Source: Microcaldota archaeon
Lineage (GTDB): Archaea > Micrarchaeota > Micrarchaeia > Anstonellales > SKW190
Length of the DNA stretch: 50,748 nucleotides
Direction: 5' to 3'
Assembly (NCBI GenBank): GCA_026414265.1
Contig: JAOAJI010000005.1
Location: 1-50,748, forward strand
Below are positions 20,903 through 50,219 of the stretch, piece by piece (position 1 is the stretch's first letter; each line of letters starts with the position of its first letter). Position numbers and translations under genes: made by a program. Under the pieces are notes generated by a model. It saw only the letters and a list, made by a program, of their open reading frames with translations. It did not search any database and had not been told where the DNA came from.

Positions 20903-21736
20903 ATGGTTTCAGTCGTTCTAAGTGCAAACAAATTCGCCTATGTGGTACTAGGTATTTCTGCTGCAGCGTTATTGATAGCTTTTACCTTACCTACTGCAAA
21001 TGACTACTTAACTTTTGTTAAAATTCTTGCTACATTTTTAACTGCGTTAACAGCTCTAATTTCATTGCTCATTTACAAATATGGTTATATCATCATTCCT
21101 CAAATTACCAAGAGACTGAAGATAACTACACCTTTACCTTTGTATTTTGAAATTTCTCCGACTCAAGATACTATACTTGCCACTGATGGCAATCTATACT
21201 ATGCAAGTGCTTTCGTAGGCCTCAATATATTCAAGTCAGCAATAGAAAGACCCGAATCTGAAATGACCACTTACATGAAATCATTTGAACGTGCGATATC
21301 AGGTCTCAGATATGTCACAAAAATTTCTTATCTGATTTATGTAATAGATATCACCAAGAAAAGAGAATCCATTAAAGAAAAAATATACACTGTCCAATAC
21401 AAACTGAACAGGGAAAGAGAAAAAACAGACCCTGACCCTATAACTATCGAAAAACTCGAAAACGAACTGGCTTTGTGGCAAACAGAACTAGAGAGATTGA
21501 CAGCAGGAAACAAACCTATGGCTATTGTTGCATATGTCCAAACAACGGCAATAGGAGTGAGCAGAGAACAAGCAGTCGCTGTGGCAAAAAGACAGGCAGA
21601 AGAAATAAAAGCTTGGATACAGAACTCTTTAGCCGTAGATGCAAGAATATTAACAGCTGAAGACATGCTTAGATGCTTTGATTGGGAATTTATGATTCCT
21701 AGGGAATACGCAGAACTTGACCAACAATTAAACTGA
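20903..21736 (+). CDS. Two-pass membrane protein resembling the VirB4/TraC N-terminal region
   Basis: A 277-residue protein with two membrane helices at about 10-29 and 36-60 and a cytoplasmic domain. The soluble part (GNLYYASAFVGLNIF; ATYMKSF-like FERAISGLRY; a Glu/Lys coiled segment at 155-195; MAIVAYVQTTAIGVSREQAVAVAKRQAEEIKAWI; DARILTAEDMLRCFDW) resembles the N-terminal domain of VirB4/TrbE-type ATPases, which is normally fused to the motor. The motor is the next gene, about 35 bases downstream, so I read this as the split-off half. CGGTGGT precedes the ATG and TTTATAAAA lies about 28 bases upstream. Homology is pattern-based and needs a profile search. Confidence 0.62.
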   Translation: MVSVVLSANKFAYVVLGISAAALLIAFTLPTANDYLTFVKILATFLTALTALISLLIYKYGYIIIPQITKRLKITTPLPLYFEISPTQDTILATDGNLYYASAFVGLNIFKSAIERPESEMTTYMKSFERAISGLRYVTKISYLIYVIDITKKRESIKEKIYTVQYKLNREREKTDPDPITIEKLENELALWQTELERLTAGNKPMAIVAYVQTTAIGVSREQAVAVAKRQAEEIKAWIQNSLAVDARILTAEDMLRCFDWEFMIPREYAELDQQLN

Positions 21737-21771
21737 TAGATAATTAAACATTGACACTAGGTAGGATCTGT

Positions 21772-23328
21772 ATGGGATGGCTAAAAATTTGCGAAGTAGA
21801 TAACCAATCAATTTCGATGAGAAATATATTAGTTATGCCCCCTGAACCTCCTGCAGATTATCTAATGCACGACATAGCAGATTCTATCTACATAGGAAGA
21901 ACACGAATATTTAATATTCCATTTCATTGGCATCATAAGTACCTTACCAATCCTCATATTTGTGTAGTAGGGATTACTGGAGCAGGTAAATCATACTTTG
22001 TAAAAACGTTTTTGGTTAGGACAAGTTTAGTGTGGGGAACTAATGCAATCATCATAGACTGGGCAGGTGAATACAAAGATTGGGTTGCTAGTACTAATGG
22101 TAAAATAGTCTCTTTAGGCTCTGGAAACTACATTAATTTACTAGATTTAGGAGGAATGACCCCTAATGTCAGAATTAAACAAATAATAAGAAGTTTAGAA
22201 CTTCTTACAGATATTGGAAATTATCCAGAACAAAAAAGATTGACAGAGCTTGCTATAGAAAAAGCATACTTAGAGAATGGTTTTAAGCTAAGTGAAACCA
22301 AACAAGTTGACCAATTGGGTAGACCATTAAAAGTACCTACTCTAAAGGACGTTGTCAGAATATTAGAGGAGAAACTTGCAAAAGGCGATTACGAATTTCC
22401 TGCAGAATTAGAAAATGCAATTTACAGACTAAAACAATTCACCAAAGAAGGCCAAGACTACTTTGCCAGACAAAGTACACTTGATCTTGAAAACTTGACT
22501 AAATCAGGATTAGTAGACATAGACCTCTCGAAATTACCAGACGAAGTATTTAGAGCATTGTCTGCATTGACCATTTTACAGTTTTTGAAAGAAAAAATGA
22601 GACAAGAGGGCTGGGCAAAGGAAAAAGGAGTTAAATTATATATTGTACTAGATGAAGCATGGAAAATAGCCAAGGAAGAGAATAGCGATGCTGTAATGAT
22701 TGTAAGAGAAGGAAGAAAATATCAATTCGGGTTGATAGTTGCATCACAAAACCCTACTGACATAAGCGAAGCAATCTTTAGCAACGTGGGAACAACTTTT
22801 ATTCTTAAGATAAAATTCGAAAAGTATTTGGACTATTTACAAGGTACCTTGAACTTTTCAGATTTTATAAAAGAAGAGATTAGGAATTTAGGAGTAGGAC
22901 AAGCAGCTGTCAATTTGGCATGGACTGTTTCATCTGATTTTTCACAAACTTTTATTATAGACCACATTGAAGGCGAAGAACCCAGAAAAGAATACTTTAT
23001 AGATTTAGGGAGTGTCCTTGGTGATGATATGGCACAAACACTAGCTATTAGAAAAGATGATTTGAGAAAGAGATTAAAGCTTTATGGTGTTAATGAGACA
23101 CAAATAGAAGAAGTTAATTCAACCTTTGACAAGGGAAACAGACACATGGATATCGTAAACTTCGTAGTACTCTTAGACAAATTTGGTATCTCTAGAAGCA
23201 ATATTACATCCTTGCTCAAAGACTTAGGCCTTGATGACAGCACAATAATAAATATATTTACTAAAGTAGATTATAAGAAATTGGATATCATGAGTGAAGA
23301 AATGACTCAATTAGAATTAGACCAATAA
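21772..23328 (+). CDS. VirB4/HerA-like secretion ATPase
   Basis: A 518-residue motor ATPase of the VirB4/HerA-FtsK group. Walker A is VGITGAGKSYF (about 67-77), then IIIDWAGEYKDW, Walker B LYIVLDEAWK (about 285-295), a sensor-like REGRKYQFGLIVASQNPTDIS and an Arg-containing segment. LDLENLTKSGLVDIDLSKLP is the stretch preceding Walker B in VirB4/HerA proteins. The C-terminal 90 residues are helical, possibly a protein-binding tail. A TTG start would add seven residues; ATG at 21772 lies 6 bases after GGTAGGA. The preceding gene supplies the membrane part. Expected role: power substrate transfer or pilus assembly at the membrane. Confidence 0.85.
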   Translation: MGWLKICEVDNQSISMRNILVMPPEPPADYLMHDIADSIYIGRTRIFNIPFHWHHKYLTNPHICVVGITGAGKSYFVKTFLVRTSLVWGTNAIIIDWAGEYKDWVASTNGKIVSLGSGNYINLLDLGGMTPNVRIKQIIRSLELLTDIGNYPEQKRLTELAIEKAYLENGFKLSETKQVDQLGRPLKVPTLKDVVRILEEKLAKGDYEFPAELENAIYRLKQFTKEGQDYFARQSTLDLENLTKSGLVDIDLSKLPDEVFRALSALTILQFLKEKMRQEGWAKEKGVKLYIVLDEAWKIAKEENSDAVMIVREGRKYQFGLIVASQNPTDISEAIFSNVGTTFILKIKFEKYLDYLQGTLNFSDFIKEEIRNLGVGQAAVNLAWTVSSDFSQTFIIDHIEGEEPRKEYFIDLGSVLGDDMAQTLAIRKDDLRKRLKLYGVNETQIEEVNSTFDKGNRHMDIVNFVVLLDKFGISRSNITSLLKDLGLDDSTIINIFTKVDYKKLDIMSEEMTQLELDQ

Positions 23329-23354
23329 GATTAACATATTACTACGGTGATTTT

Positions 23355-23837
23355 TTGACCTCTAAAAGTAAAATGCATGAAAATTACCATAAGATGCCCA
23401 TATGTATTGTATGCGGTACTGAACTGCCTGGACTGATGATAAAGGACGCAAAAAAAATTTATGAAGAGGATATAGTTTTAGTAACATTAAGAAAAATAAA
23501 AAATATTATAATGCCTGGAAAAACAGGTATTCACCAACTTTATGTGTGTAATAACTGCTTAGATAGATACAAAGAAAAAAGAAAAAGATATGAATCAACT
23601 ATGAATACGATAATCGTAATCGCTGTTCTTTTATCTATTATTGTGATAATTTTGCCTCTAATGTATGTGCGATTACCTGACTTGGTGAGTGTGATTTTCT
23701 CTGTTGTCTTTCTATTAATGTTTGTTGTTTTAGCAACGCTATCTTACGTACCTCCACTCGAAGAATCCAAGCATAAAAATTCATCACAACACGTCGAATC
23801 TATGAAACAATCAACAGAATTAAAAAACAAAAACTAA
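23355..23837 (+). CDS. Zinc-ribbon, two-pass membrane protein
   Basis: A 160-residue protein I do not recognise. CIVCG (about 17-21) and CNNC (about 65-68) form a four-Cys zinc ribbon on the cytoplasmic side, followed by hydrophobic helices at about 84-106 and 110-131 and a polar tail. It begins with TTG at 23355, 5 bases after GGTGAT; ATG at 23373 is the alternative. It lies 26 bases after the VirB4-like ATPase and is followed immediately by the next gene, so all four genes from 20903 probably form one transcript and this may be an accessory subunit. Confidence 0.7.
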   Translation: MTSKSKMHENYHKMPICIVCGTELPGLMIKDAKKIYEEDIVLVTLRKIKNIIMPGKTGIHQLYVCNNCLDRYKEKRKRYESTMNTIIVIAVLLSIIVIILPLMYVRLPDLVSVIFSVVFLLMFVVLATLSYVPPLEESKHKNSSQHVESMKQSTELKNKN

Positions 23838-23855
23838 TTTATGTTAGTGACTCTT

Positions 23856-24632
23856 ATGCCATTGCCAAATTCGTCAGCATCTTCAACTAAAGAAAAGAAA
23901 ATTGAACAACAAGAAGAACAACAAAAACAACAGTTTGGGGCAAGCAAATTTGTTCTTCCAGTAGAGCTATTATCATCTATTGACTCTGTTTATGATAAAC
24001 TTATTCAGTTAAACAGTATCAATACAATTAAGAGTGATAACAAAGTAACTATACTGAATGTAATTACAAGAGACATTAATAAAAAACCTGCAATATTTAC
24101 CATGATACAATTCGAAGAAAACTTTATCACTGTAACGTATACTTATGGACCTGGAATGAGTCCGAAAAAAAAGTTCTTAGAAACTATGAGTTTCTTGTTA
24201 AACATATTAACTATATTAAAAGATGATTACAAAGTCGATGTTAGTTTGATTAATCAATTACTAACCAAGATATTAGACGAACTAAAAGATTTTGCTGATT
24301 TAAAATATGAGGCATTACATTCTTTATACGACAACTTGAACCAACAATATTTGCAAGCTTTAAAAGAATTAAAAAATCTAAAGGACGCTAATGACCAACT
24401 GATAATAGATAATTATAATCTAAAAACAAAAAACAACCAACTTATTGCAAAACTAGAAAAATTTACGAACCTTTCTGATGATGTTTTAAAAGCTAAAATT
24501 CAAGAATGGATAATTGCAAACAAAGGCGAAATAGACATAATTGAGTTTGCAAAAGTATATAATGTCTACGAAGGTAGAGTTGAAGAAATATTAAGGCAGT
24601 TGATGGATGAAGGCTTTCTGGAAAGCAAGTAG
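23856..24632 (+). CDS. Coiled-coil protein with C-terminal winged helix-like domain
   Basis: A 258-residue cytoplasmic protein without a recognised family. A Gln/Glu/Lys-rich N-terminus is followed by a globular part (TILNVITRDINKKPAIFTMIQFEENFITVTYTYG split across about 65-100), a coiled coil at about 165-215, and a final 45 residues (IQEWIIANKGEIDIIEFAKVYNVYEGRVEEILRQLMDEGFLESK in pieces) that look like a winged helix. ATG at 23841 would overlap the previous stop region and has no ribosome binding site; GTGACT lies 5 bases before ATG 23856. Last gene of the VirB4-like cluster; it may regulate or cap the ATPase. Confidence 0.65.
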   Translation: MPLPNSSASSTKEKKIEQQEEQQKQQFGASKFVLPVELLSSIDSVYDKLIQLNSINTIKSDNKVTILNVITRDINKKPAIFTMIQFEENFITVTYTYGPGMSPKKKFLETMSFLLNILTILKDDYKVDVSLINQLLTKILDELKDFADLKYEALHSLYDNLNQQYLQALKELKNLKDANDQLIIDNYNLKTKNNQLIAKLEKFTNLSDDVLKAKIQEWIIANKGEIDIIEFAKVYNVYEGRVEEILRQLMDEGFLESK

Positions 24633-24648
24633 TAAGAAAAATTGATCA

Positions 24649-27390
24649 TTATTTGTAAGAACTCAAATAATTAATAACCTCATCTACCGTCATTATCTTT
24701 AATGTTTTTTTAAGGAATGCTATCTTTAAATCCATATATCTGACGTCATCTGAATAAAGTGATTCAATAAATCTGTTTTTATCTTCTAAATCCCCTAAAA
24801 CAAGAATTACTTCTTCACGCATCAAGTAAGGAAGCATGTGGAAACTCGTTTGCGACTTTTCAGATATAACAAATAGATAAACTTCTTTAGTCGAAAACAC
24901 GAAAGTAAAATTAGGCTTATCAGGTTCTAATTTCAACTCATATTTTATTGCAAGTGACAATGCCTTTTCTCTTATCATTCTGATTACAGACAAATATTTC
25001 ACGTCATAAAGTGAGTTAGATTCCCATGCAGATGGACAATAATAATTTCTATACCTTTTGATAAGGCCTTTTTCTATTAAAGACGAAAGGATTATTTCTA
25101 AATTATAATCGTTTATTATCAATTTCTTTCCTTTTACATCCATATCGTATATGGTTTTTTTAAGCTCCTCTATAGTCAAAGGCATGTATTCCCATCCATA
25201 TTTTCTGTTCGCCCTCTGGAAAAGTCCCAAAATAAATTCTGGCTTTACTTTAACCTTGTTGATCTTACTAAGAGGGAAATCCGGAACAGTCAAATAGTAC
25301 ATCTTTTCCTCAGGCGCTCTGATAAGTCTCGAAACAAATACAAAAATAAAAGCACCGATTAACATTACTAAGTAAATCGGGTCCTCATACCAAATGTAAG
25401 GCTTCAAATAATTAAGTTTAAGCTCAATTGAGTATCTTTTCTTTTCTTCTATTTGTTTGTCTTTAGGTAAAAAAACAAATCTAAAAGTGTGCTCACCTAC
25501 AGTAGCAGCTTCGTTTATCGAAACATCAAATGAAGAACCGTTTACTCTTCCAATGTAACGTGAATCATAATAAATATCAACATAATCTACTGGATAAAGC
25601 TTATTGGTTGTTTTTGAAACTATACTAAAATTAAATTTTCCTTTTGCCCAATCACCGATCCCTATGAAAGGAAGTACCATGGGTTCATCTAGCATCACGT
25701 AAGTCTTTCCTATTACTTTTGTTTCTTCCATGTCTTTTGAGGCAACAATAACGTAGCCCCCAGGAGGCACAGGAAGGTCTACTTGCTTACCAATAATCTT
25801 TAAATTAACTAAAAAAGGCCCTCCTTGTAATTTTTGAGTATGTAGTTTTTTTTCTCCTTGATAAATGTGCAGATATACATCACTTAATTCATTTGTAAAC
25901 TCATTGAAGTCCAAAGTTAGCACAGGTTTTATTTCACTGATCAAATTAGATACTATAAACGCATATCCTTGAGGAGGTTCAAAATACAACATTCCTTCAT
26001 GCTCAGTTACAGTCCTATGAAATAATAACTTTTTATATTCGGTATTAGTGGACGTTATACCTTGAAAGATAATGGCATAGTATAGAGAGTCTAAATTATA
26101 ATCCAAGTTATCTACTAAAACTATATTTGCTTCTTCAGTTAAATTGCCTTTACTTTTTTTGTAATAAGAGTAGTACTCTAAATTAATCAGTACCTGTGAA
26201 ACATCATCAACAGAATCTTCAATAGACCCCCAACCAACTGATAAAGGAACTGGAAAAAATATTATACCCCCCAATCCAGTTTCACTCACAATCATCTGTA
26301 GCCCATTATCTAATACCTTCATTGAACTTTGATCACCCAACACAATGTATTCTCTACTCATCAACTTTAGTTTAGAGAGCTTTTGTAAGTTTGATTCTTG
26401 ATTACTATATCCAGGAGTACCTTTTTTTAACATTTTAATACCGGTATCATACTCTGAATTCATAGAAGTTTGCACTACTTTTCCATCACTTTTAACTGCC
26501 CTGTCAAAGCTATCTCCAACGTAAAAAATTAATATGTCCTTTGAAAGTAAATCCTTGATTAATTTACCTTTATTTTCTAAAAATTCTATTGGAATGTAAT
26601 TAACCGGAATTATAAGTATAGAATTCTCTGATATTTCTTCTAAGTCCTCTAGCTCTATCATTACAGGATATATGCCTGAATCAGCAAGTTTTTGTTTTAA
26701 TAAATTAACAAAGCCAAGATATGATTCCTGATATTGATGATAAACTAAAGGGTTTAGTTCTAAGATAAACACATTTGTTTTGAATGGTTGCTTTGACAAA
26801 AATACCGTATATGAAAGATTGGTTAGGTTCATATATGTAACATTTACCAATGAATAGAAAACCTTGTAATTCATATTATCCTTTGAATATGGAACTAATC
26901 CACCGTCAAATTCATCAACTTTTAATAATGTTTTTAAAAATTCAGATTCAGAAACAGTTTGACTACCAGCTTGAATAAATATTAAATAAACCGAAAAAGT
27001 AACAAAAGCGATAAAGACAAACATGACGCCTAAAAGCTTTTTGGCTAAGCTAGTAGGCGAAATAACCTTTATTTTCCTTAACTCAGAATCCGTAACTGTT
27101 TGTTTTTTATCACCCTTCTTCTCACTTTTGATAACATCTAATTCTTTTTCCTTATAATCTTCTTTCATCTTTTTTATTTCTAGTAAACCAAGTTCAACTA
27201 AGGAATTACGGATTCCATAAACTACTCTCGCAATGAAAGGTAGTGCCTCTATATCTTTAAATGAATAATATCTCTTGGCATCAAATCTTTTCTTTATCGC
27301 AAAATAAAATTTTCTTCTAAAAATTTTGAGTTTAGATTTTTGTTCCTGTAGAGAATCTTGATCCTGCTTTTGGTTATCCGTCTCAACCAT
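24649..27390 (-). CDS. Large two-pass membrane protein with extracellular and cytoplasmic domains
   Basis: A 913-residue protein I do not recognise. Order: basic cytoplasmic segment (1-120), membrane helix (about 122-144), a long exterior region (about 145-650) with beta-rich repeats near its end (PVPPGGYVIVASKD; IYYDSRYIGRVNGSSFDV; EHTFRFVFLPKDKQ), a second helix (about 658-678), and a cytoplasmic domain of about 230 residues that includes a winged-helix-like part (LEIILSSLIEKGLIKRYRNYYCP) and a basic end. It follows the NAD kinase gene by 29 bases and converges on the VirB4-like cluster. Topology suggests a surface sensor or envelope-spanning scaffold; linkage to the transfer system is only positional. 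Confidence 0.75.
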   Translation of the reverse strand: MVETDNQKQDQDSLQEQKSKLKIFRRKFYFAIKKRFDAKRYYSFKDIEALPFIARVVYGIRNSLVELGLLEIKKMKEDYKEKELDVIKSEKKGDKKQTVTDSELRKIKVISPTSLAKKLLGVMFVFIAFVTFSVYLIFIQAGSQTVSESEFLKTLLKVDEFDGGLVPYSKDNMNYKVFYSLVNVTYMNLTNLSYTVFLSKQPFKTNVFILELNPLVYHQYQESYLGFVNLLKQKLADSGIYPVMIELEDLEEISENSILIIPVNYIPIEFLENKGKLIKDLLSKDILIFYVGDSFDRAVKSDGKVVQTSMNSEYDTGIKMLKKGTPGYSNQESNLQKLSKLKLMSREYIVLGDQSSMKVLDNGLQMIVSETGLGGIIFFPVPLSVGWGSIEDSVDDVSQVLINLEYYSYYKKSKGNLTEEANIVLVDNLDYNLDSLYYAIIFQGITSTNTEYKKLLFHRTVTEHEGMLYFEPPQGYAFIVSNLISEIKPVLTLDFNEFTNELSDVYLHIYQGEKKLHTQKLQGGPFLVNLKIIGKQVDLPVPPGGYVIVASKDMEETKVIGKTYVMLDEPMVLPFIGIGDWAKGKFNFSIVSKTTNKLYPVDYVDIYYDSRYIGRVNGSSFDVSINEAATVGEHTFRFVFLPKDKQIEEKKRYSIELKLNYLKPYIWYEDPIYLVMLIGAFIFVFVSRLIRAPEEKMYYLTVPDFPLSKINKVKVKPEFILGLFQRANRKYGWEYMPLTIEELKKTIYDMDVKGKKLIINDYNLEIILSSLIEKGLIKRYRNYYCPSAWESNSLYDVKYLSVIRMIREKALSLAIKYELKLEPDKPNFTFVFSTKEVYLFVISEKSQTSFHMLPYLMREEVILVLGDLEDKNRFIESLYSDDVRYMDLKIAFLKKTLKIMTVDEVINYLSSYK

Positions 27391-28276: not shown

Positions 28277-28738
28277 ATGCCTGGTGAATCATTCACTCAA
28301 ATGATTTTCTTCATTACTGCAGTTACTGTTGCAAGCATGCTCGTGTTTGCGTTAAACTCAAATTTCCAATCTTTCATGAAAAGTCTCAACTTTAAAGCTA
28401 AAAGCGTTTCTTCACAAGTAGCTACCTCAATAAAAATAATTAATGACCCTTGTTACTTAAATGACACTGTGCATGTTAAGAATATCGGCTCACCTATCCA
28501 AGACCCAAACACAACAACAATCATCATTAACGGAGAAATTAAAATGCCTTCAAACGTGACCATACAAATAGGCTCTAACTGGATACAGGTAAATTCATCA
28601 ACAATATGGGAAAAAGGCCAAATCGTAGCATTCAAAATGCCTAACACTTTACCTAAAAACAATCAACTAAATAGAATAAAAGTAGTCACAGAAAACGGTA
28701 TTTTTGATGAAATTGTTTATACTAACGTAAGTTGCTAA
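28277..28738 (+). CDS. ArlF/ArlG-like archaellum or pilus stator protein
   Basis: A 153-residue secreted protein. The short N-terminus MPGESFTQMIFFITAVTVASMLVFAL is the typical start of archaeal ArlF/ArlG (FlaF/FlaG) proteins, which have one helix without a long leader and an exterior beta-sandwich. The exterior domain (INDPCYLNDTVHVKNIGSP; TTTIIINGEI; VTENGIFDEIVYTNVSC) fits an immunoglobulin-like fold with a possible Cys-Cys bridge and several N-glycosylation sites. TTTTATATATAG about 40 bases upstream is a TATA box. Two pilin-like genes follow closely. No other archaellum genes are in the window, so the partner filament may be a pilus. Confidence 0.72.
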   Translation: MPGESFTQMIFFITAVTVASMLVFALNSNFQSFMKSLNFKAKSVSSQVATSIKIINDPCYLNDTVHVKNIGSPIQDPNTTTIIINGEIKMPSNVTIQIGSNWIQVNSSTIWEKGQIVAFKMPNTLPKNNQLNRIKVVTENGIFDEIVYTNVSC

Positions 28739-28765
28739 ACATAACTTAACATAAAAGGAACGAAA

Positions 28766-29155
28766 ATGTCAAATCATAATAAGAAACTTAATATAAAAAA
28801 AGCTCAAGTAGCTTTTGAGATTTCGATAAATATAGTTTCTTATTTTCTCTTCATAAGCATGTTATCTGCTAACATAGATACATTGGTAAATGAAAAGATT
28901 GTAAATAACATCTACCAAAAAAACGCATATACTATTGCTACTGAAACTGAGCTTGCTGTCCAAAACGCCAAATTGAGAAAAGGCATGATATATCACATAA
29001 ACTATGAGAATCTTTTAATAGAGAAAGTTAACAACGAAAGCCTGTTACTCAATTACACTTATCCACTGGCTTATGCAAAAATTGACGAGAATATGACGAT
29101 AGATGAGTTTGAAGGCAAAGGGATTGTTAATTCTTGGACAATTTCAAGAACATGA
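28766..29155 (+). CDS. Type IV pilin-like protein, class III signal peptide
   Basis: A 129-residue protein with a basic lead (NHNKKLNIKKA), the processing motif KAQVAFE, and a hydrophobic helix. In archaeal class III signal peptides the prepilin peptidase cuts before the Q, which leaves Glu at position 5 of the mature protein as here. The remaining 80 residues are a small exterior domain. Its stop overlaps the next ATG by four bases (ATGA), showing translational coupling. AAAGGAAC precedes the start. Likely a minor pilin. Confidence 0.75.
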   Translation: MSNHNKKLNIKKAQVAFEISINIVSYFLFISMLSANIDTLVNEKIVNNIYQKNAYTIATETELAVQNAKLRKGMIYHINYENLLIEKVNNESLLLNYTYPLAYAKIDENMTIDEFEGKGIVNSWTISRT

Positions 29156-29658
29156 TTATTATGATGATAATTGTGCAAAATAACATAAAAGCTCAGATCG
29201 CAACCATTGAGTTCGTAATGGCATCAACTGCAATCTTGTTCATGTATTTATTCTTGACTAACTATCTCAACACTTTAGCAGATAACACAGAAATAGAAAA
29301 AAACAGAGCTATCCTAAGAGCAGACATAGAAAAAATATCGACTTATACATTATCAGCTGGGAATCCAGAAAATTGGTCTATCCAATCAGGTGTTCCAGGT
29401 TTATTGTGCACAAACAATGTTGTATGCCAAGAAAAATTGGATTTGTTCATGCAATTGTGCTCATTAAATTATTCAAGAATAAAAAAATCATGGAATTTGA
29501 ATTCTGATTTTTCCATGAAATTAATAAATAATAGTTTTAGCCAATGCATTTGTAACTGTGGAATCACAAACAGAAAATTTTCTGAGACAGACATAATATC
29601 TATACCACATAATGATACTGTATACTCGATAATAATCTCAACCTATTCTCTAAAGTAG
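29152..29658 (+). CDS. Type IV pilin-like protein with Cys-rich exterior domain
   Basis: A 168-residue protein. The lead contains IKAQIATIEF, like the KAQxAFE motif of the neighbours but with Glu one place later, followed by a hydrophobic helix (VMASTAILFMYLFLTNYL). The exterior domain holds six Cys (LLCTNNVVC; LCSLN; CICNCG), suggesting disulfides. ATG at 29152 overlaps the previous stop (ATGA); a TTG 18 bases earlier is less likely. Probably a minor pilin acting with the previous two gene products. It converges on the LamG pilin gene. Confidence 0.72.
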   Translation: MIIMMIIVQNNIKAQIATIEFVMASTAILFMYLFLTNYLNTLADNTEIEKNRAILRADIEKISTYTLSAGNPENWSIQSGVPGLLCTNNVVCQEKLDLFMQLCSLNYSRIKKSWNLNSDFSMKLINNSFSQCICNCGITNRKFSETDIISIPHNDTVYSIIISTYSLK

Positions 29659-29686
29659 TTCAATCCATACTAGGTTTTTATAAAAA

Positions 29687-30775
29687 CTATATGTATTTGG
29701 CTAAATAATTTTCCTCTATTTCAAAACTGTCAAGAGCCCTTGAATAAATAAGGATTTCATCTATGTCCATTTTCGTAAATGAATTGGTTAGATTATTGGT
29801 TCCTATTGTTATTGGATTATTTAAAGAATTTACATTTATATTTCCAACAAAAGAAGAATTTACCAGTAGGGAATTGATGTACAAAGAAATATGTGTTGAA
29901 TTCTTTACAGCTACTATGTGATACCACTCATTCAACGCTATAGGATAAGAAACATTGTAAGAGCTTGAGTTACTAGCTACACGAAATACTATACTGTTGT
30001 CATTTCCAGTAGAAGATAAGAAGATACCGTATTCGGAAGACGATATTGTTGCATCAGATTTCCATTTAACTATTCCATAATAATTACTAAAGCCTGATGA
30101 GCCTTCAGTCTTTCTTAAAACAGCTAAAATTGAAAAATCAGATGAAGAGAATCTTATGTTGTCTTTGTCAGGTATTATGAAATAATTAGAACCGTTCAAA
30201 GAACAATAACTGTTTATGACCCCATTATTCTCTTTAGAACAATTAGGATTGTTAACAGAAATAGCGTGATTTTGATAAATAGTAGAATCATTAGTCGTGT
30301 TTGAAAAATTGTAACTTGCAACCAATCCATGTGTCTTTCCTAAAGTTGGATAAACTTTAACTACTTTGTTCTCTGCCTTGAAAACAGAGAATAAATACTT
30401 TCCAGTAGAATTTGGCAGTTTTCCTGTTATGTTAAACCTGAAATTCCTAAATGCAGTAGAGCCTTTGTAAGATATAGCTATGGCCTTACCTGAACCAAGT
30501 GAAGAATTTGAACCTATGTAACTGTTATTGAGGTCTATACCACTAGGAAAAACCAAGTATACGTATCTTTGTGAACCTATTGGCAGTCCATAAACCTGGT
30601 TAATTGTAAATTCTAAAGCTTCTAATGAAGTGTCAATACTCGAGACATTAGTAGAATCAACCAAATTAGCGTATGTAAAAGCAAATATAAGAACTATTGG
30701 AATGAGTAGCAGTGATGCTAACAACATGTTTTCAAAAGCTGCTTGGGCCTTTACAAAAAATTTTTTATTGGTCAT
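29687..30775 (-). CDS. Pilin-like protein with LamG (concanavalin-like) domain
   Basis: A 362-residue surface protein. The N-terminus has VKAQAAFENMLLASLLLIPIVLI, a class III signal peptide plus membrane helix with Glu at mature position 5. A beta-rich region (about 60-150) leads to a LamG-type lectin domain at about 165-362, with SYNFSNTTNDSTIYQNHA, DFSILAVLRKTEG, LNEWYHIVAVKNSTHISLYIN and DIDEILIYSRALDSFEIEENY, the classic closing signature. Many Asn-glycosylation sites. RBS AAGGT overlaps the upstream gene's stop; ATG at 30775 is preferred to a TTG six bases earlier. Likely an adhesin pilin for glycan or surface contact. Paralogue of the next gene. Confidence 0.82.
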   Translation of the reverse strand: MTNKKFFVKAQAAFENMLLASLLLIPIVLIFAFTYANLVDSTNVSSIDTSLEALEFTINQVYGLPIGSQRYVYLVFPSGIDLNNSYIGSNSSLGSGKAIAISYKGSTAFRNFRFNITGKLPNSTGKYLFSVFKAENKVVKVYPTLGKTHGLVASYNFSNTTNDSTIYQNHAISVNNPNCSKENNGVINSYCSLNGSNYFIIPDKDNIRFSSSDFSILAVLRKTEGSSGFSNYYGIVKWKSDATISSSEYGIFLSSTGNDNSIVFRVASNSSSYNVSYPIALNEWYHIVAVKNSTHISLYINSLLVNSSFVGNINVNSLNNPITIGTNNLTNSFTKMDIDEILIYSRALDSFEIEENYLAKYI

Positions 30776-30777
30776 AA

Positions 30778-31881
30778 TCAATTACCTTGATATCCCATGT
30801 AGTACAGATCCTCAACCTCAAATTTGTTCAATGACTTGTTGTAAATCCTTAAATCGTCTATAACTCCGTTTATGTATACACTACCCCTTCCGCCTATCCT
30901 GAAATAGTTCTGTGCTTCTGTAAAACCACCTGACCAAGTCGTTGAGTTCCTCTTTAGTCCGTTAACAAAAATGTCAATAGATCTATTGGTGTAATAAATA
31001 ACAACTACATGATACCATTTATTTACCTCCATTTGAACAGAAGAAGATACGTTGAACAGAGTTGCGCCTGAATTGTAAATAAAAGCAGTAGGCACGTTTG
31101 AAGGAACAGAAACAAACCAATGATATGTATAACCACCAACTACTACTTCATCCCAGGAAGAAGATTCAATAGTTGACGGTTTGTACCAAAACGAAATTGA
31201 TATATTGTTTGACAAAGGATTAGTGTAATTCCTTATCCCCAAAGGAATACTGATATAACTAATACTTCCAGAAAAATTACATGCAGTCTGTATTATTCCT
31301 GTAGTCGTATTACTACAATTTACATTTCCTGTTATAGTACCGTTAAACCTTTTCGTGTAATCATTAGTTGAATTATCAAAATTCCAATAAGAAATTAAAT
31401 TAATATCGTTGAACACGCCATTAAGGTCTTTTAAATTTTCGTATGTATCAATCCTTATTCTGTCATTAGAAGTCTTATAGACTCTTAACATATAGGTACC
31501 TGGATTTGATGGCAGTCTGCCATAAACATCAACACTAAATAGCTTGAATGCAGTTGACTGCTTGTACGCTATCTGTATCGATTTTCCTTTTGAACCGTTT
31601 AAAGAACCAATATAAGATAATGAACTGTTATAACCTGTTGGCAATGAGATTACCACATCAACAAATGAATTTGACGAGAGTTGTGTTAAGTCATCTACTG
31701 CTTTTCCTAATCGGTCAAGCGCGCTATTCACATAGTAGATTCCCAAAGAATCGTTAAAAGAGACATAGGCCAAAGAAGTCATATATAATATTACTATAGA
31801 TAAAATGACCATTGAACCAAAATATTCGAAAGCGGTCTGTGCCTTATGAATGTTATAACTCGAAAACAAAGATTTCTCCAT
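30778..31881 (-). CDS. Pilin-like protein with LamG (concanavalin-like) domain, second copy
   Basis: A 367-residue paralogue of the downstream gene with the same plan: lead with HKAQTAFEYFGSMVILSIVILYMTS, a beta region with LPTGYNSSLSYIGSLNGSKG (compare FPSGIDLNNSYIGSNSSLG in the paralogue), then a LamG domain with ISYWNFDNSTNDYTKR, ISISFWYKPS, VNKWYHVVVIYYTNRSIDIFVNG and GVIDDLRIYNKSLNKFEVEDLYY. The stop TGA abuts the next start region, so the two are co-translated. TTTAAGATG about 25 bases before the ATG suggests a leaderless mRNA. Tandem duplication is likely. Confidence 0.82.
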   Translation of the reverse strand: MEKSLFSSYNIHKAQTAFEYFGSMVILSIVILYMTSLAYVSFNDSLGIYYVNSALDRLGKAVDDLTQLSSNSFVDVVISLPTGYNSSLSYIGSLNGSKGKSIQIAYKQSTAFKLFSVDVYGRLPSNPGTYMLRVYKTSNDRIRIDTYENLKDLNGVFNDINLISYWNFDNSTNDYTKRFNGTITGNVNCSNTTTGIIQTACNFSGSISYISIPLGIRNYTNPLSNNISISFWYKPSTIESSSWDEVVVGGYTYHWFVSVPSNVPTAFIYNSGATLFNVSSSVQMEVNKWYHVVVIYYTNRSIDIFVNGLKRNSTTWSGGFTEAQNYFRIGGRGSVYINGVIDDLRIYNKSLNKFEVEDLYYMGYQGN

Positions 31882-45905: not shown

Positions 45906-46042
45906 GTAATGCTTCTTGTATGATGTAGAATTATTGTTGATTCATGGAAAGATTTTATAACTTTTTCATTATCTAATCATAATCATAGCATTTTAAATTA
46001 TTGCTGTTGTTCTGAATCACTAAAAAAATCTTGTTTGATTCT

Positions 46043-46567
46043 ATGTATTATGTTTTGGTAATGATTGTTCTTCTGTACTTCTGCACAAATTTTTTCATCA
46101 GTGTTATATCTGACAACTATTCCTATGATTATTCCGTAATCTATAATAAACAAAATTATCAAATAGTGTTTTTTAAAGAACAAAGAATGAAACACGAGTT
46201 GGATAACGAAATAAAAAATATCGTATCGAAAATAGTAAACTCACAAGAATATCTTAATACTAAGGATTTAGCAGCAAAAACAGCGCTTTTTAAAACTAAT
46301 TTTGAAAAAGAATTACTCGAACTGGATAGTAAATTAAAAAAAGACGAAGTTGAACTAGTCTGCGTAAATAATAAAGAGCATAAGAAACTAATCATCCTTG
46401 AAAAGTTATATTACGGCAAATGCTATTCTTGTAAAAAAATCTGTGATTATGTTTTTTTACCAGATACTGAAAAGTTAATATTAATGCCATCAAACAGTTT
46501 TGCAGTACTTGGCTCATTAGATAACTACGCATACATCAGTGTTTCAGAAGTGAGTGCATATGGATAG
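46043..46567 (+). CDS. Pseudopilin-like protein, single N-terminal membrane helix
   Basis: A 174-residue protein. The N-terminus (MYYVLVMIVLLYFCTNFFISVIS) is a bare membrane helix with no basic lead, followed by a helical and beta exterior part containing Cys pairs (ELVCVNNKEH; GKCYSCKKICDYVF). I do not recognise a family. A TTG start 12 bases earlier is possible. It is the first of four small membrane-anchored proteins that run directly into a secretion ATPase gene, so it probably serves as a minor pilin or anchor of that system. It overlaps the next gene by 8 bases. Confidence 0.65.
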   Translation: MYYVLVMIVLLYFCTNFFISVISDNYSYDYSVIYNKQNYQIVFFKEQRMKHELDNEIKNIVSKIVNSQEYLNTKDLAAKTALFKTNFEKELLELDSKLKKDEVELVCVNNKEHKKLIILEKLYYGKCYSCKKICDYVFLPDTEKLILMPSNSFAVLGSLDNYAYISVSEVSAYG

Positions 46568-46820
46568 CTCTGAGTTGATTTTATCTCTCTTAATTGCAAG
46601 CATTGTTTCATTAATATTAATTAATTCACTAAAGAACTATATCAAAACTCTAGACTATCAAGCTATTAACAAGCTAAATCATGAATGTGAATTAGTTTTA
46701 TTCAGCAAAACAAATGCGAATATAGGTATAAAGCATAACGTTTTATCAAAAATTATAGAATTAGAGGAGGAAAATAAAAAATATTTAATTCTAGGCAATA
46801 TGTCTTGCAGAATAAATTGA
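46560..46820 (+). CDS. Pseudopilin-like protein, 86 residues
   Basis: Starts MDSSELILSLLIASIVSLILINSL, one membrane helix whose short acidic lead resembles ArlF/ArlG and minor pilin starts. A small exterior domain with two Cys (HECELVLF; GNMSCRIN) follows. ATG at 46560 is preferred to GTG at 46554; GTGAG precedes it inside the end of the previous gene. Second gene of the four-gene set; likely a minor pilin. Confidence 0.65.
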   Translation: MDSSELILSLLIASIVSLILINSLKNYIKTLDYQAINKLNHECELVLFSKTNANIGIKHNVLSKIIELEEENKKYLILGNMSCRIN

Positions 46821-46842
46821 CTTTTTTAAAAAGGCATTAAAT

Positions 46843-47118
46843 ATGTATTCGATTGACTTGGCGATTAATACAATAATTTTGTTTTTTATGATTCTTTACA
46901 TAATAAACTACATCTTTTTTATTAATTATGAAAAAATGGAGCAGATAAAAATCACAAAACTTCTACGCTTAGGCAATTACTTTATTACCAATGAAAATAC
47001 TCTAGACCACGATTTTCTCAGATTAAACAATATAACTTATTGTAAAGATTGCTATTTAACAGGAACTGTTTGTATTTCCAGGAAAGAAACTGTTTATTGC
47101 TTTGAGGTGATAGGTTAA
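46843..47118 (+). CDS. Pseudopilin-like protein with four-Cys cluster, 91 residues
   Basis: Starts MYSIDLAINTIILFFMILYIINYIFFI, a membrane helix. The exterior part ends in YCKDCYLTGTVCISRKETVYCFEV, whose four Cys could form two disulfides or bind metal. AAGGC lies 8 bases before the ATG. Third of the four-gene set. Its final codons contain the GAGGTGAT that serves the next gene. Confidence 0.65.
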   Translation: MYSIDLAINTIILFFMILYIINYIFFINYEKMEQIKITKLLRLGNYFITNENTLDHDFLRLNNITYCKDCYLTGTVCISRKETVYCFEVIG

Positions 47119-47119
47119 A

Positions 47120-47386
47120 ATGTACCATTCACTTGAAACACTTATAAGCATGATTGTATTTATCTTTTGCTTGAACGTTCTGTTAAACACATTAACATCT
47201 ATAGACTGGGAATTAACAGAAAGTGTAATTGAAATAAAAATAAGTTATGCCTTAGATTATTACCAAGGCTATGTTTTAAAAGATACGCAAATTTACCAAA
47301 CGGCATTTCCTGAAATGATCAAATGCGATCAAAAACTCAAAATTGTGTTAAAAAATTGGTACAATTCGTATACTGTAATCTGCTGA
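47120..47386 (+). CDS. Pseudopilin-like protein, 88 residues
   Basis: Starts MYHSLETLISMIVFIFCLNVLLNTL, a membrane helix with a Glu near residue 6, then an exterior domain of about 60 residues with two Cys (MIKCDQKL; YTVIC). GAGGTGAT (47103-47110) overlaps the end of the previous gene and lies 9 bases before the ATG. Fourth of the set; the secretion ATPase gene follows after 76 bases with a possible second promoter (TTATAAAG). Confidence 0.67.
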   Translation: MYHSLETLISMIVFIFCLNVLLNTLTSIDWELTESVIEIKISYALDYYQGYVLKDTQIYQTAFPEMIKCDQKLKIVLKNWYNSYTVIC

Positions 47387-47462
47387 TGTTTATAATAAAC
47401 TTCATTAAAATACAACACCTAATTGATATTGATTATAAAGTAAAATATTCTTTTTATGTCAT

Positions 47463-49742
47463 ATGTGTTTACCAACCTTAGAGGGCAATAGACTTATAAT
47501 GGATTGTGCACACTGCTCATACGAGATGTACTCTGCTAAATGTATTCAGAGCCATCTGAAAACGATATCTGCATTTCAATCAGTTTGGAAAGAAATGCGA
47601 TACGAAGAAGAAGTAACGATTAACTTCGCTCCTGAATCAGTAAATACATTAGTCGAGTATGTTATCTTCATACGAGACTTCGAAAAAATAATGAGTGATC
47701 AGAAAACTTATGGACATCCTCAAGATGAAAATTATAACAAAAGAATAAATTTGCTCAAATCAGCTTATGAAAAACTTTTTATTGACCCGAAAAAAGTAAT
47801 AGATATCATTGAATCCTACAACGAAGACTTGCCTCAAAGATCAGTATTCTTGGATGGATATAACAAGTTCTCGGTTATAAGAAAGGCTCTGCTCAAGGTT
47901 CTCAAAAACCTCAAAATTATCAACGAAATGCAAAACAAGCATACAGTAAGAGAGCTGTTCCTCGAATATGCAAAACTAAAAGAGTACGAATTCGTTGAAA
48001 TGCTATTGTTACCTGTACCGCCTAACGCCAAACCAATAGACGATCCAGACAGTAAAATACAATTACCATACGGGATAGTCGCTAAAGTCTATGACCTTGA
48101 AGGCAGTGAAGCCAATATTTATCTCATTGAAAACACATATCTGGAGAATATACCTCCTCAAATAATACCTTATATAAAACAATTGATTGAAGAAGAAACC
48201 AAAGCTTTTCCTTCTTCTGAGGACATGGCAGGACTATTCGAAAACAAGATCAGGGAATACAGGAACTATTTCAACGAAAAAGCTCTGCAACTAAATATCA
48301 CTTTGACTCCTCAACAAGCCCTGGGAATAGCAAGAGAATGTGCGTGCTGGACAGTCGGCTTAGGCGCACCTATAGAAAACCTTGCTCTTGATAAAGAAAA
48401 CATCACAGATATTTACATAGACGGCCAAAACAGTCCAATATACATTGAACACAGAAAATTTGGGCTTTGTCACACAATCTACAGGTACAACTTGAATTTG
48501 CTTGAACATGCATTCAGGAATATCGTGCTTTTTTCAGGAGAAGGAAGAAAATTCGACGACAAAAATCCTGTAGTAGATGTTGTGCTAAAAAGATTGGCTA
48601 TGCGATGCCACCTCCAAAGACCACCAGCAACATTCTCAGAACTGCAAGGGGCTCTTAGAATAATGAGGGCACTACCATTCACTTATTGCCAATACTTAAA
48701 CTACTATGCTATGACGCCTTTCTATGCAGGCTACGATGATTTAATGGTTTCACTTGGTTGCAGCGAAGCAGTATTAGGCTTGAAAGGCGTTGGAAAAACA
48801 TCTTTTACAGCTGCAAAAATTGCTGCCATTGGTACTAAAATGAGAATCCTTCCTATTCAAGATATTGAAGAGATTCCAGTTAAAGCCTACAGGAAAAGAG
48901 GGTTCCACATAGGCGCAATGAAAGTTCAGAGCTCAGACATAGAAGGAATGCATCAAATCGGAGGTAATGAATTAGATTTGTTGAGCATGGCAAACGCATC
49001 ACTGAGAATGGGTGATGCGTGTATTATCATAAACGAAATTAGGTCTAGAACAACTATTCAAGGTGTCATCAATATACTGAATACTCAACCAGGTGTTTTT
49101 ATATTATATAATCTGCACGCACAAAGCCTGAAAGACGTACAAGACAGACTGGAATTGGTATTTGGAATACCTAGTGCTAGTATGTACGCAACAGAAAGAT
49201 ATACATTCCTAAAAAAAGTTAGGTTCGGAAGACAAAAAACAGTCAACAGAGTACTTGGTGAAGCGTATGAAACAGATATCAACAATAAAGAATTCGTACA
49301 AACTTTTGGCTTCAAAAAAAGAACCTCAATGAAAGACTCTGCTTTACTTTGTTACTTTTTAAAAAATCCTGAAGCGCATTCATGGACCCTTGATAACCTT
49401 GACCTTACTAAGCTCAAGAAAAATCTCAATTTCTCTGCAGAACCACCTGTTGTCAAAAAACGTGCTAATGACAACGGATTTGAATTAGAAGATTATATTA
49501 TGGACGCATTCTTCAAGGCAAAGATTTATTACGATATAAAAGAAATTGCAAGTAGAACAAATCTAAAAAAATTACTCGAAATTGACTTTGTTTTGAAAGT
49601 AACTGCAGAAGCAAACAAGTTATTGGTTATGCACGAAAAGAAATACGGAGGAATCGATTATTCTAACTTAGTGCCTGAATGGAACGAAATATTCAAGCAA
49701 TTGGCCAAAGAAGAAATTACTCTTCTGAAAACTAACCAGTAA
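47463..49742 (+). CDS. VirB11/GspE-type secretion ATPase
   Basis: A 759-residue ATPase of the type II/IV secretion group, expected to drive pilus or archaellum-like assembly. The N-terminal 25 residues contain DCAHCSYEMYSAKC, a possible zinc site. Residues about 60-290 are helical, 290-430 the NTD2-like part (ECACWTVGLGAPIENLALDKENITDIYIDG). Walker A is GLKGVGKTSF (about 439-448), then PIQDIEEIPV and Walker B ACIIINEIRSRTTIQG (about 518-533), HAQS and a C-terminal helical region. The Walker A lacks the usual GPTGSGKTT but keeps GxGKTS. ATG at 47463 or 47499 are both possible. No TadC/ArlJ membrane partner is in the window. Confidence 0.87.
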   Translation: MCLPTLEGNRLIMDCAHCSYEMYSAKCIQSHLKTISAFQSVWKEMRYEEEVTINFAPESVNTLVEYVIFIRDFEKIMSDQKTYGHPQDENYNKRINLLKSAYEKLFIDPKKVIDIIESYNEDLPQRSVFLDGYNKFSVIRKALLKVLKNLKIINEMQNKHTVRELFLEYAKLKEYEFVEMLLLPVPPNAKPIDDPDSKIQLPYGIVAKVYDLEGSEANIYLIENTYLENIPPQIIPYIKQLIEEETKAFPSSEDMAGLFENKIREYRNYFNEKALQLNITLTPQQALGIARECACWTVGLGAPIENLALDKENITDIYIDGQNSPIYIEHRKFGLCHTIYRYNLNLLEHAFRNIVLFSGEGRKFDDKNPVVDVVLKRLAMRCHLQRPPATFSELQGALRIMRALPFTYCQYLNYYAMTPFYAGYDDLMVSLGCSEAVLGLKGVGKTSFTAAKIAAIGTKMRILPIQDIEEIPVKAYRKRGFHIGAMKVQSSDIEGMHQIGGNELDLLSMANASLRMGDACIIINEIRSRTTIQGVINILNTQPGVFILYNLHAQSLKDVQDRLELVFGIPSASMYATERYTFLKKVRFGRQKTVNRVLGEAYETDINNKEFVQTFGFKKRTSMKDSALLCYFLKNPEAHSWTLDNLDLTKLKKNLNFSAEPPVVKKRANDNGFELEDYIMDAFFKAKIYYDIKEIASRTNLKKLLEIDFVLKVTAEANKLLVMHEKKYGGIDYSNLVPEWNEIFKQLAKEEITLLKTNQ

Positions 49743-49750
49743 AAAACATG

Positions 49751-50143
49751 TCAGCATGTAATTTGAGTTCCTCCTCCACCACCACTTGTAGCTGCAGACC
49801 ATAAACTATTTATTATTGCAGGTCCTGCAGTTGCTATTATCAATCCCATGATTGCGCCTACAAGCATGTTGTTGCTCCATACATTTGCCCTGGCCCTTGT
49901 CTCTGCACCTGTAAACTGACCACCAATGTATACAACTCCAGAACCCATGATCATCAACATTGCTAATGGAGGTATTAGACTTCTTACACCGTTACATACA
50001 TCACAAATCGTAATGCATAACTGTCTTAATCCAGTATTTGTAATAGAATTACATTGTGACTGACATTGAGGATTTTGAGAAAAACCTAATGAAACAAACA
50101 GTATCATTAAAATTGATAATGTCCTAAAAACTTTTTCTATCAT
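49751..50143 (-). CDS. VirB2-like pilin
   Basis: A 130-residue secreted protein with a signal peptide (MIEKVFRTLSILMILFVSLGFS, cut probably before QNPQ), a Cys-rich segment (QCQSQCNSITN; LCITICDVCNG), two membrane helices (LIPPLAMLMIMGSGVVYIGG and AIMGLIIATAGPAIINSLW) separated by TGAETRARANVWSNN, and a Gly-rich end with a final Cys. The plan of two helices with a short polar loop is that of VirB2/TrbC pilins (T4SS_pilin-like). TATATAAC about 25 bases before ATG 50143 favours this start over one 18 bases earlier. It converges on the secretion ATPase gene. Confidence 0.72.
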   Translation of the reverse strand: MIEKVFRTLSILMILFVSLGFSQNPQCQSQCNSITNTGLRQLCITICDVCNGVRSLIPPLAMLMIMGSGVVYIGGQFTGAETRARANVWSNNMLVGAIMGLIIATAGPAIINSLWSAATSGGGGGTQITC

Positions 50144-50219
50144 AAAATTCGCCTTTGGCATATGTTATATACTATAGTGGTAATTTTTATAATTCTTTTT
50201 TGTAATCGATTGTAGTAAA

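Follow-up and report, generated by a model that had tools for sequence, protein, structure and literature searches.

The machines closest to the locus described here are Ced of the Sulfolobales (CedA, CedA1, CedA2, CedB, CedD and CedE), Ted of the Thermoproteales (TedA, TedB and TedC) and the R388 VirB machine, a bacterial conjugative type IV secretion system (T4SS). VirB4, the motor ATPase of such machines, is normally one chain. The published near-precedent for a divided one is the pair CedB and CedD, which supply different parts of one VirB4 N-terminal domain (PMC11868833), and in R388 this domain is wrapped by VirB3, a protein with two transmembrane helices (PMC9259494). Here we analysed a 50,748-nucleotide stretch of a Microcaldota archaeon (contig JAOAJI010000005.1, assembly GCA_026414265.1; the whole stretch is called the window), in which two adjacent genes, A and B, encode a predicted VirB4 N-terminal domain and its ATPase. 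We consider it very probable that this locus holds the motor genes of a Ced-like T4SS-type machine of Micrarchaeota that is chromosomal and inherited vertically, with the VirB4/CedB motor made as two chains. The open full-text literature searched held no description of this system, subscription papers and preprints lying outside that coverage, and it is apparently undescribed.

An earlier reading of the letters alone (the sequence-only reading) had placed a four-gene membrane cluster at 20903-24632. All four open reading frames (ORFs) are present at the coordinates given, and their order is conserved in relatives, whereas the number was too low: the cluster consists of five genes, A-B-C-D-E, the last of which is inverted in the window and co-directional after D in related loci (Table 1). 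Protein A (277 amino acids) carries its two helices at the N-terminus, followed by an alpha/beta domain with a long helical hairpin. The ORF program started B at a TTG at 21751; the ATG at 21772 agrees with the conserved family N-terminus 'MGxL'. The zinc-ribbon membrane protein and the coiled-coil/winged-helix protein read after B were confirmed as ORFs, the winged-helix match being weak.

Table 1. Genes of the A-E cluster and the pilin gene in the window.
Feature	Coordinates	Strand	Description	Basis
A	20903-21736	+	Predicted membrane-anchored VirB4/CedB N-terminal domain, own gene	AlphaFold2, Foldseek, profile matches
B	21772-23328	+	Predicted HerA/VirB4/CedB-class ATPase, helical C-terminal tail	NCBIfam, Pfam, tree
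C	23355-23837	+	Zinc-ribbon cysteines and two transmembrane helices, conserved third gene	Sequence, gene order
D	23841-24632	+	Coiled coil / winged helix, conserved fourth gene	Weak MarR/EAP30 matches, gene order
E	24649-27390	-	Two-transmembrane protein, predicted large Ig/macroglobulin-like beta ectodomain, cytoplasmic C-terminal domain	AlphaFold2, Foldseek, gene order
Pilin	49751-50161	-	VirB2/TrbC-like pilin: signal-like N-terminal helix and hydrophobic helices	PF18895 and PF04956, weak

The fold of A was modelled by AlphaFold2 from 68 sequences (pLDDT 88.9, pTM 0.69). When the model was compared with the PDB by Foldseek, the top 10 matches were all TrwK/VirB4 chains (probability 1.00) and the next match fell to 0.57. 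In predicted viral structures the search ranked Gp155 of Bacillus phage G first (E 7e-5, probability 1.00); it also returned a phage protein named 'component of type IV transporter system' (probability 0.99). We noticed a second split set in the same genome, on contig C24 (contigs, genomes and loci carry our own numbers, prefixed C, G and L), composed of a 238-amino-acid two-transmembrane protein (A2), a 472-amino-acid ATPase (B2) and a coiled-coil protein, the D paralogue D2, which comes after B2. A of the window (type 1) and A2 (type 2) form one family (hhalign 1.7e-82). The CedB profile is collinear on the paralogous pair, matching A2 at 7-193 (7e-5) and B2 at 248-522 (3.5e-27), indicating that the split falls between the CedB N-terminal domain and the ATPase. 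Six of 21 type-2 A members match CedB and two weakly match a VirB4 family. A itself gave no Pfam match of note, and direct hhalign comparison with single bacterial VirB4 sequences, or with genes upstream of them, returned nothing significant. The region read earlier as VirB4 N-terminal-like was indeed found to have this fold, and A is, as judged from the model and from the CedB profile via A2, a VirB4 N-terminal domain made as a separate, membrane-anchored protein. On plasmids of Pontibacillus and Geobacillus (L250, L251) a VirB4-like ATPase of ~620 amino acids follows an overlapping gene of 274-318 amino acids, a layout resembling A-B; these shorter genes showed no significant similarity to A.

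The adjacent gene was correctly read as a separate Walker ATPase: B carries the Walker A motif GITGAGKS, the Walker B motif VLDEAW and the motif SQNP, and in Pfam matches the families DUF87, AAA_10 and TraG P-loop. In NCBIfam the CedB and VirB4 families outscore HerA, with CedB at 1.2e-22, mycoplasma integrative and conjugative element (ICE) VirB4 at 3e-21, CedD at 1e-19, CD1110 VirB4 at 3e-19 and HerA behind them at 3.5e-14, all far under the equivalog cut-offs; for the CedB equivalog NF041017 this is 700 bits, and B reached 80 and B2 93 bits. Two variants of B were seen in relatives. At L149:2665-5829 and G084:C37:2710-5805 the protein has ~1,055-1,067 amino acids, with an insertion of ~510 right before the Walker B strand, which in L149 looks like an intein containing a LAGLIDADG-type homing domain; elsewhere a gene of ~98-112 amino acids right after B copies its helical C-terminal tail (L274:9284, L275:7310, L276:8373, L044:5518 and others).

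The split is a property of the whole phylum. Every one of the 39 genomes of the order has homologues of A, usually two, and A is present in 253 of 295 genomes of the phylum (88 of 96 among the near-complete ones). From a scan of named genomes we kept 80 of 100 relatives; their titles are mostly Micrarchaeota, others include 'ainarchaeum' and Burarchaeum, and one each is labelled Woesearchaeota and Euryarchaeota, a label taken as wrong. B lies downstream of A in 75 of the 80 loci, and four of the remaining five stop at a contig end. In all 75 loci A and B are separate genes, in most of them in different reading frames, so both domains on one chain, as VirB4 normally has them, were found in none. 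No true A-B fusion occurs among the loci examined, an apparent one in L147 being an artefact of an N-run in the assembly. A is often tandemly duplicated (A-A-B), and the order A-B-C-D-E is kept in 54 of the 55 loci with enough sequence. The spread of A and this constant order set the cluster apart from a chance arrangement.

The sequence-only reading had linked the motor to a VirB2-like pilin 26 kb away. The pilin gene is real, but the distance is no evidence in itself, since the genome has several pilin copies. Its matches to T4SS_pilin (PF18895) and TrbC (PF04956) are weak for the window member; across the family, T4SS_pilin is matched by 15 of 23 members (best 1.8e-6) and TrbC/VirB2 by 10 of 23 (best 7.2e-6), and the only PDB profile match is TrwL, at E 0.1. 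The evidence for linkage comes from other families, surveyed with profiles built in this analysis, in which pilins, polytopic proteins that we denote U, or both precede the operon. In genome G079 a stretch of a 1,178,830-bp contig holds five U genes followed by A-A-B-(B tail)-C-D-E, and a U array precedes A-A-B-C-D-E in L274, L275, L276 and L284. Three pilins lie directly before A-B-C-D-E in L280, and one lies before A-A-B-C-D-E in L283. The order pilin-U-A-B was found in L281, and pilin-U-A2-B2 in L277-L279 and in several type-2 loci of the order, so that L277-L279 and L281 place a CedB-like motor, a CedA/VirB6-like protein and a VirB2-like pilin side by side. All seven matches to the CedA model in 19 genomes are U genes, and among the controls Sulfolobus acidocaldarius alone gave a signal. 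U is present in 16 of 16 genomes tested that have A-B and in none of seven without; among 24 genomes, A and B occur together in 14, B only, at a contig edge, in one, and no orthologue of either in nine. These arrangements point to a Ced-like T4SS-type machine. Some U proteins have two pilin-like repeats ahead of the polytopic part, which recall the CedA1-like N-terminus of CedA (PMC9905601). When U was searched by sequence against the PDB, the sole matches were ABC transporters; their meaning is doubtful, and they were set aside. The protein encoded at L188:11464-13185 (573 amino acids) joins a pilin-like N-terminus to a long cysteine-rich domain and is perhaps a tip or adhesin pilin.

The U arrays have exactly six genes in 15 of 20 inspected; the remainder are truncated or apparently had one member missed. 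Within arrays of the window's order, position corresponds to orthologous clade, with five label changes, the minimum possible, a value reached in 0 of 200 shuffles. In a larger tree most members from G079 and from the window's own genome (G000) group with the matching U1-U6. In families f12 and f13 the genes at positions 3 and 5 fall with U3 and U5; those at positions 1, 2, 4 and 6 form separate clades, each specific to its position, so not every position group is a single clade when all families are taken together. A second array is present in many genomes. In G000 one array lies on C30, where U1-U5 run into the contig end, and another is apparently split between C83 (L299, U1-U3) and C50 (L269, U4-U6); from this break over two contig ends, C83 and C50 would be expected to adjoin in the genome. 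That six distinct subunits have long been conserved in order suggests that the U channel is a heteromer of six different subunits, and U1-U6 may sit together in one ring. A bolder proposal, tentative and in our judgement rather less probable than not, is that the machine is a distinct T4SS class, with a hetero-oligomeric inner-membrane channel of six VirB6/CedA-like proteins at one ring position each, a two-chain VirB4 motor, an Ig-domain surface subunit and a role in exchange with host cells.

Comparison of sequences and models establishes that A and B are separate, which fold A has, to which class B belongs, that the operon is conserved and that it is linked to, and co-occurs with, U and pilin genes, and the assignment to a Ced-like type IV secretion-type machine is well supported on the same grounds. 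Several observations weigh against it. In the window's own genome the U and pilin genes are not adjacent to the type-1 A-B pair and the parts are dispersed; in one species (L084) A and B do not lie together. The ten TrwK matches of A represent one single protein, with E-values of 2.9e-3 to 2.4e-2 and a template-modelling score of ~0.4 over 175-196 columns. The matches of U to CedA are weak (best 6.8e-6), and U matches no VirB6 Pfam model. In a PDB sequence search B scored higher with HerA chains (57 bits) than with VirB4 (35 bits). The VirD4 (PF02534) and relaxase (PF03432) models gave no match in the window's genome and only stray weak ones in eight others, other relaxase families not having been searched.

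In the mechanism we propose, A, anchored by its two helices, would supply the VirB4 N-terminal domain and B the ATPase ring and helical tail. The two would assemble together, A holding the ring of B under a membrane channel formed by U, and the helices of A possibly doing the work of VirB3; VirB2-like pilins would be levered into a pilus. An adaptor role is probable for C and D, which perhaps face DNA, and E would be an outward-facing scaffold or an adhesin. Of the conjugation or DNA-import machine proposed from the sequence alone, the CedB-, CedA- and VirB2-like parts stand, occurring in one operon in related families, and DNA as the cargo and its direction of movement we infer. The most likely cargo would be single-stranded DNA, imported to serve repair or to provide nucleotides, as in Ced. 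The resemblance to CedB and CedA suggests this, as does the fact that no relaxase or VirD4 was found; we give this cargo about an even chance.

Micrarchaeota are presumed to depend on hosts. The main rival keeps the same machine and has it secrete proteins or hold the host cell, as an episymbiont's contact-dependent system for effectors or nutrients in which E is the adhesin. It is suggested by two parallels: the T4SS of Patescibacteria is near-universal, mostly relaxase-less and, in one class, essential for epibiotic growth (PMC12102498), and nanohaloarchaea have giant surface proteins in which Ig-like repeats and a VirB4/TraG-like ATPase are combined (PMC10266531). The predicted ectodomain of E, a protein of ~850 amino acids, also counts in its favour. 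AlphaFold2 modelled E (pLDDT 76.9) with an ectodomain at ~143-670 between the two transmembrane helices and a folded cytoplasmic C-terminus; Foldseek gave generic beta-sandwich matches only and no family was assigned, so that only 'Ig/macroglobulin-like' can be claimed. Against this rival, a coupling protein was not found and the resemblance of D to a winged-helix protein hints at nucleic acid, and we regard it as less likely than not, though the best of the alternatives. Two genes that follow type-2 modules were rejected as parts of the system; one, of ~520 amino acids, reads as PheT and the other as PurD, both housekeeping.

A second alternative, that B is a HerA-type motor of DNA repair or resection and A an unrelated membrane anchor, draws on the fact that the best solved-structure sequence matches of B are HerA central domains. 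However, CedB and CedD are HerA-like too and were formerly placed in the HerA clade (PMC11868833), and the genome has a HerA of its own (contig C30, L007 8809-10335). In a maximum-likelihood tree B and B2 split from 12 resident HerA with SH-aLRT (approximate likelihood-ratio) support of 99, on the side of bacterial VirB4; the search was quick, with SH-aLRT support only, and the bacterial VirB4 rows are long branches. No NurA-like gene was recognised in the operon, although no NurA profile was run. Since A has the VirB4 fold and U and pilin genes are linked to the pair, this reading is largely refuted and very improbable, and B is, by its sequence, an ATPase of the HerA/VirB4/CedB class and separate from the actual HerA of the genome.

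Slightly more improbable still is that the chromosome carries what is left of a mobile element, be it a conjugative plasmid, an ICE or a virus. VirB4, VirB2 and VirB6 are classic conjugation parts, and the nearest plasmid matches of B are plasmid VirB4/TraC, 83 of 130 on plasmids predicted to be conjugative. Yet the operon is near-universal in the phylum, with B ~62% identical throughout and housekeeping genes often flanking; a set of 2.9 million viral contigs held no copy of A; B matches phages and plasmids only distantly, with no close relatives among them; and the relaxase and VirD4 models gave nothing in the window's genome. That a single VirB4 gene was divided artificially by misassembly or a frameshift, as the mere stop codon and 35 nucleotides between A and B in the window might suggest, is excluded for practical purposes by the comparison across loci, given separate genes wherever both occur, mostly in different frames, a paralogous pair that is split too, tandem A-A-B copies and an N-run behind the only apparent fusion.

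Elsewhere in the window, four small ORFs with one transmembrane helix each, followed by a TadA/FlaI/VirB11-type ATPase gene (46031-49742), run convergent with the VirB2-like pilin gene and look like a separate type IV pilus-like cluster. Consecutive ORFs at 28277-30781 each have one N-terminal hydrophobic helix and may be pilin-like or secreted.

If the Ced-like assignment is true, a phylum of tiny, probably host-dependent archaea shares a machine for exchange with other cells, much as the Patescibacteria, which are bacterial episymbionts, share a T4SS. With VirB4 naturally divided, membrane anchoring and ATP hydrolysis lie on different proteins, each of which can be tested on its own. Secretion channels in which every subunit differs are rare, and six VirB6-like proteins in fixed order would be such a case; the arrays open the symmetry of the VirB6 ring to sequence analysis and structure prediction.

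Known systems resemble this machine in different parts. The giant SPEARE-type proteins of nanohaloarchaea likewise link Ig-like repeats on a DPANN surface protein to a VirB4/TraG-like ATPase (PMC10266531), but as one fused chain, whereas E, A and B are separate; a 4,596-amino-acid open frame near 89226 of G016:C15, with a weak VirD4/HerA-type P-loop match, is possibly a giant surface protein with ATPase of the nanohaloarchaeal kind. The Patescibacterial T4SS is also near-universal and mostly relaxase-less in a small-genome episymbiont radiation (PMC12102498), but is of the bacterial MPF-FATA type, with VirB3/PrgI and TrsD, and a split VirB4 has not been described for it. Several VirB6-like paralogues with variable extensions, like U, are known from Rickettsiales (RvhB6a-e; PMC2653234); these are five duplicates in bacteria with a full T4SS, compared with six per array, and often two arrays, in Micrarchaeota. 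With R388, A shares the TrwK/VirB4 N-terminal fold, but R388 has VirB4 as one chain, VirB6 as a homopentamer (PMC9259494) and two transmembrane helices on a separate VirB3, whereas here the motor is two chains, the six U differ and A carries the two helices itself; unlike in R388, no VirB8-10, VirD4 or relaxase was recognised. Ted likewise combines VirB6-, VirB4- and VirB2-like proteins, and TedC has a signal peptide (PMC9905601), as the window pilin apparently does; TedB is reported as a single VirB4-like protein, C, D and E are absent, and its ParA and Rad50 neighbours were not seen in Micrarchaeota loci. Ced comes closest, with a CedB-like motor, CedA/VirB6-like polytopic proteins and VirB2-like pilins in both and no relaxase or VirD4 found in either. 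Here the CedB and CedA models all stay below their cut-offs, and CedB and CedD each hold the N-terminal domain and the ATPase on one chain, whereas the Micrarchaeota machine encodes them in separate genes and adds C, D, E and the six-gene U arrays.

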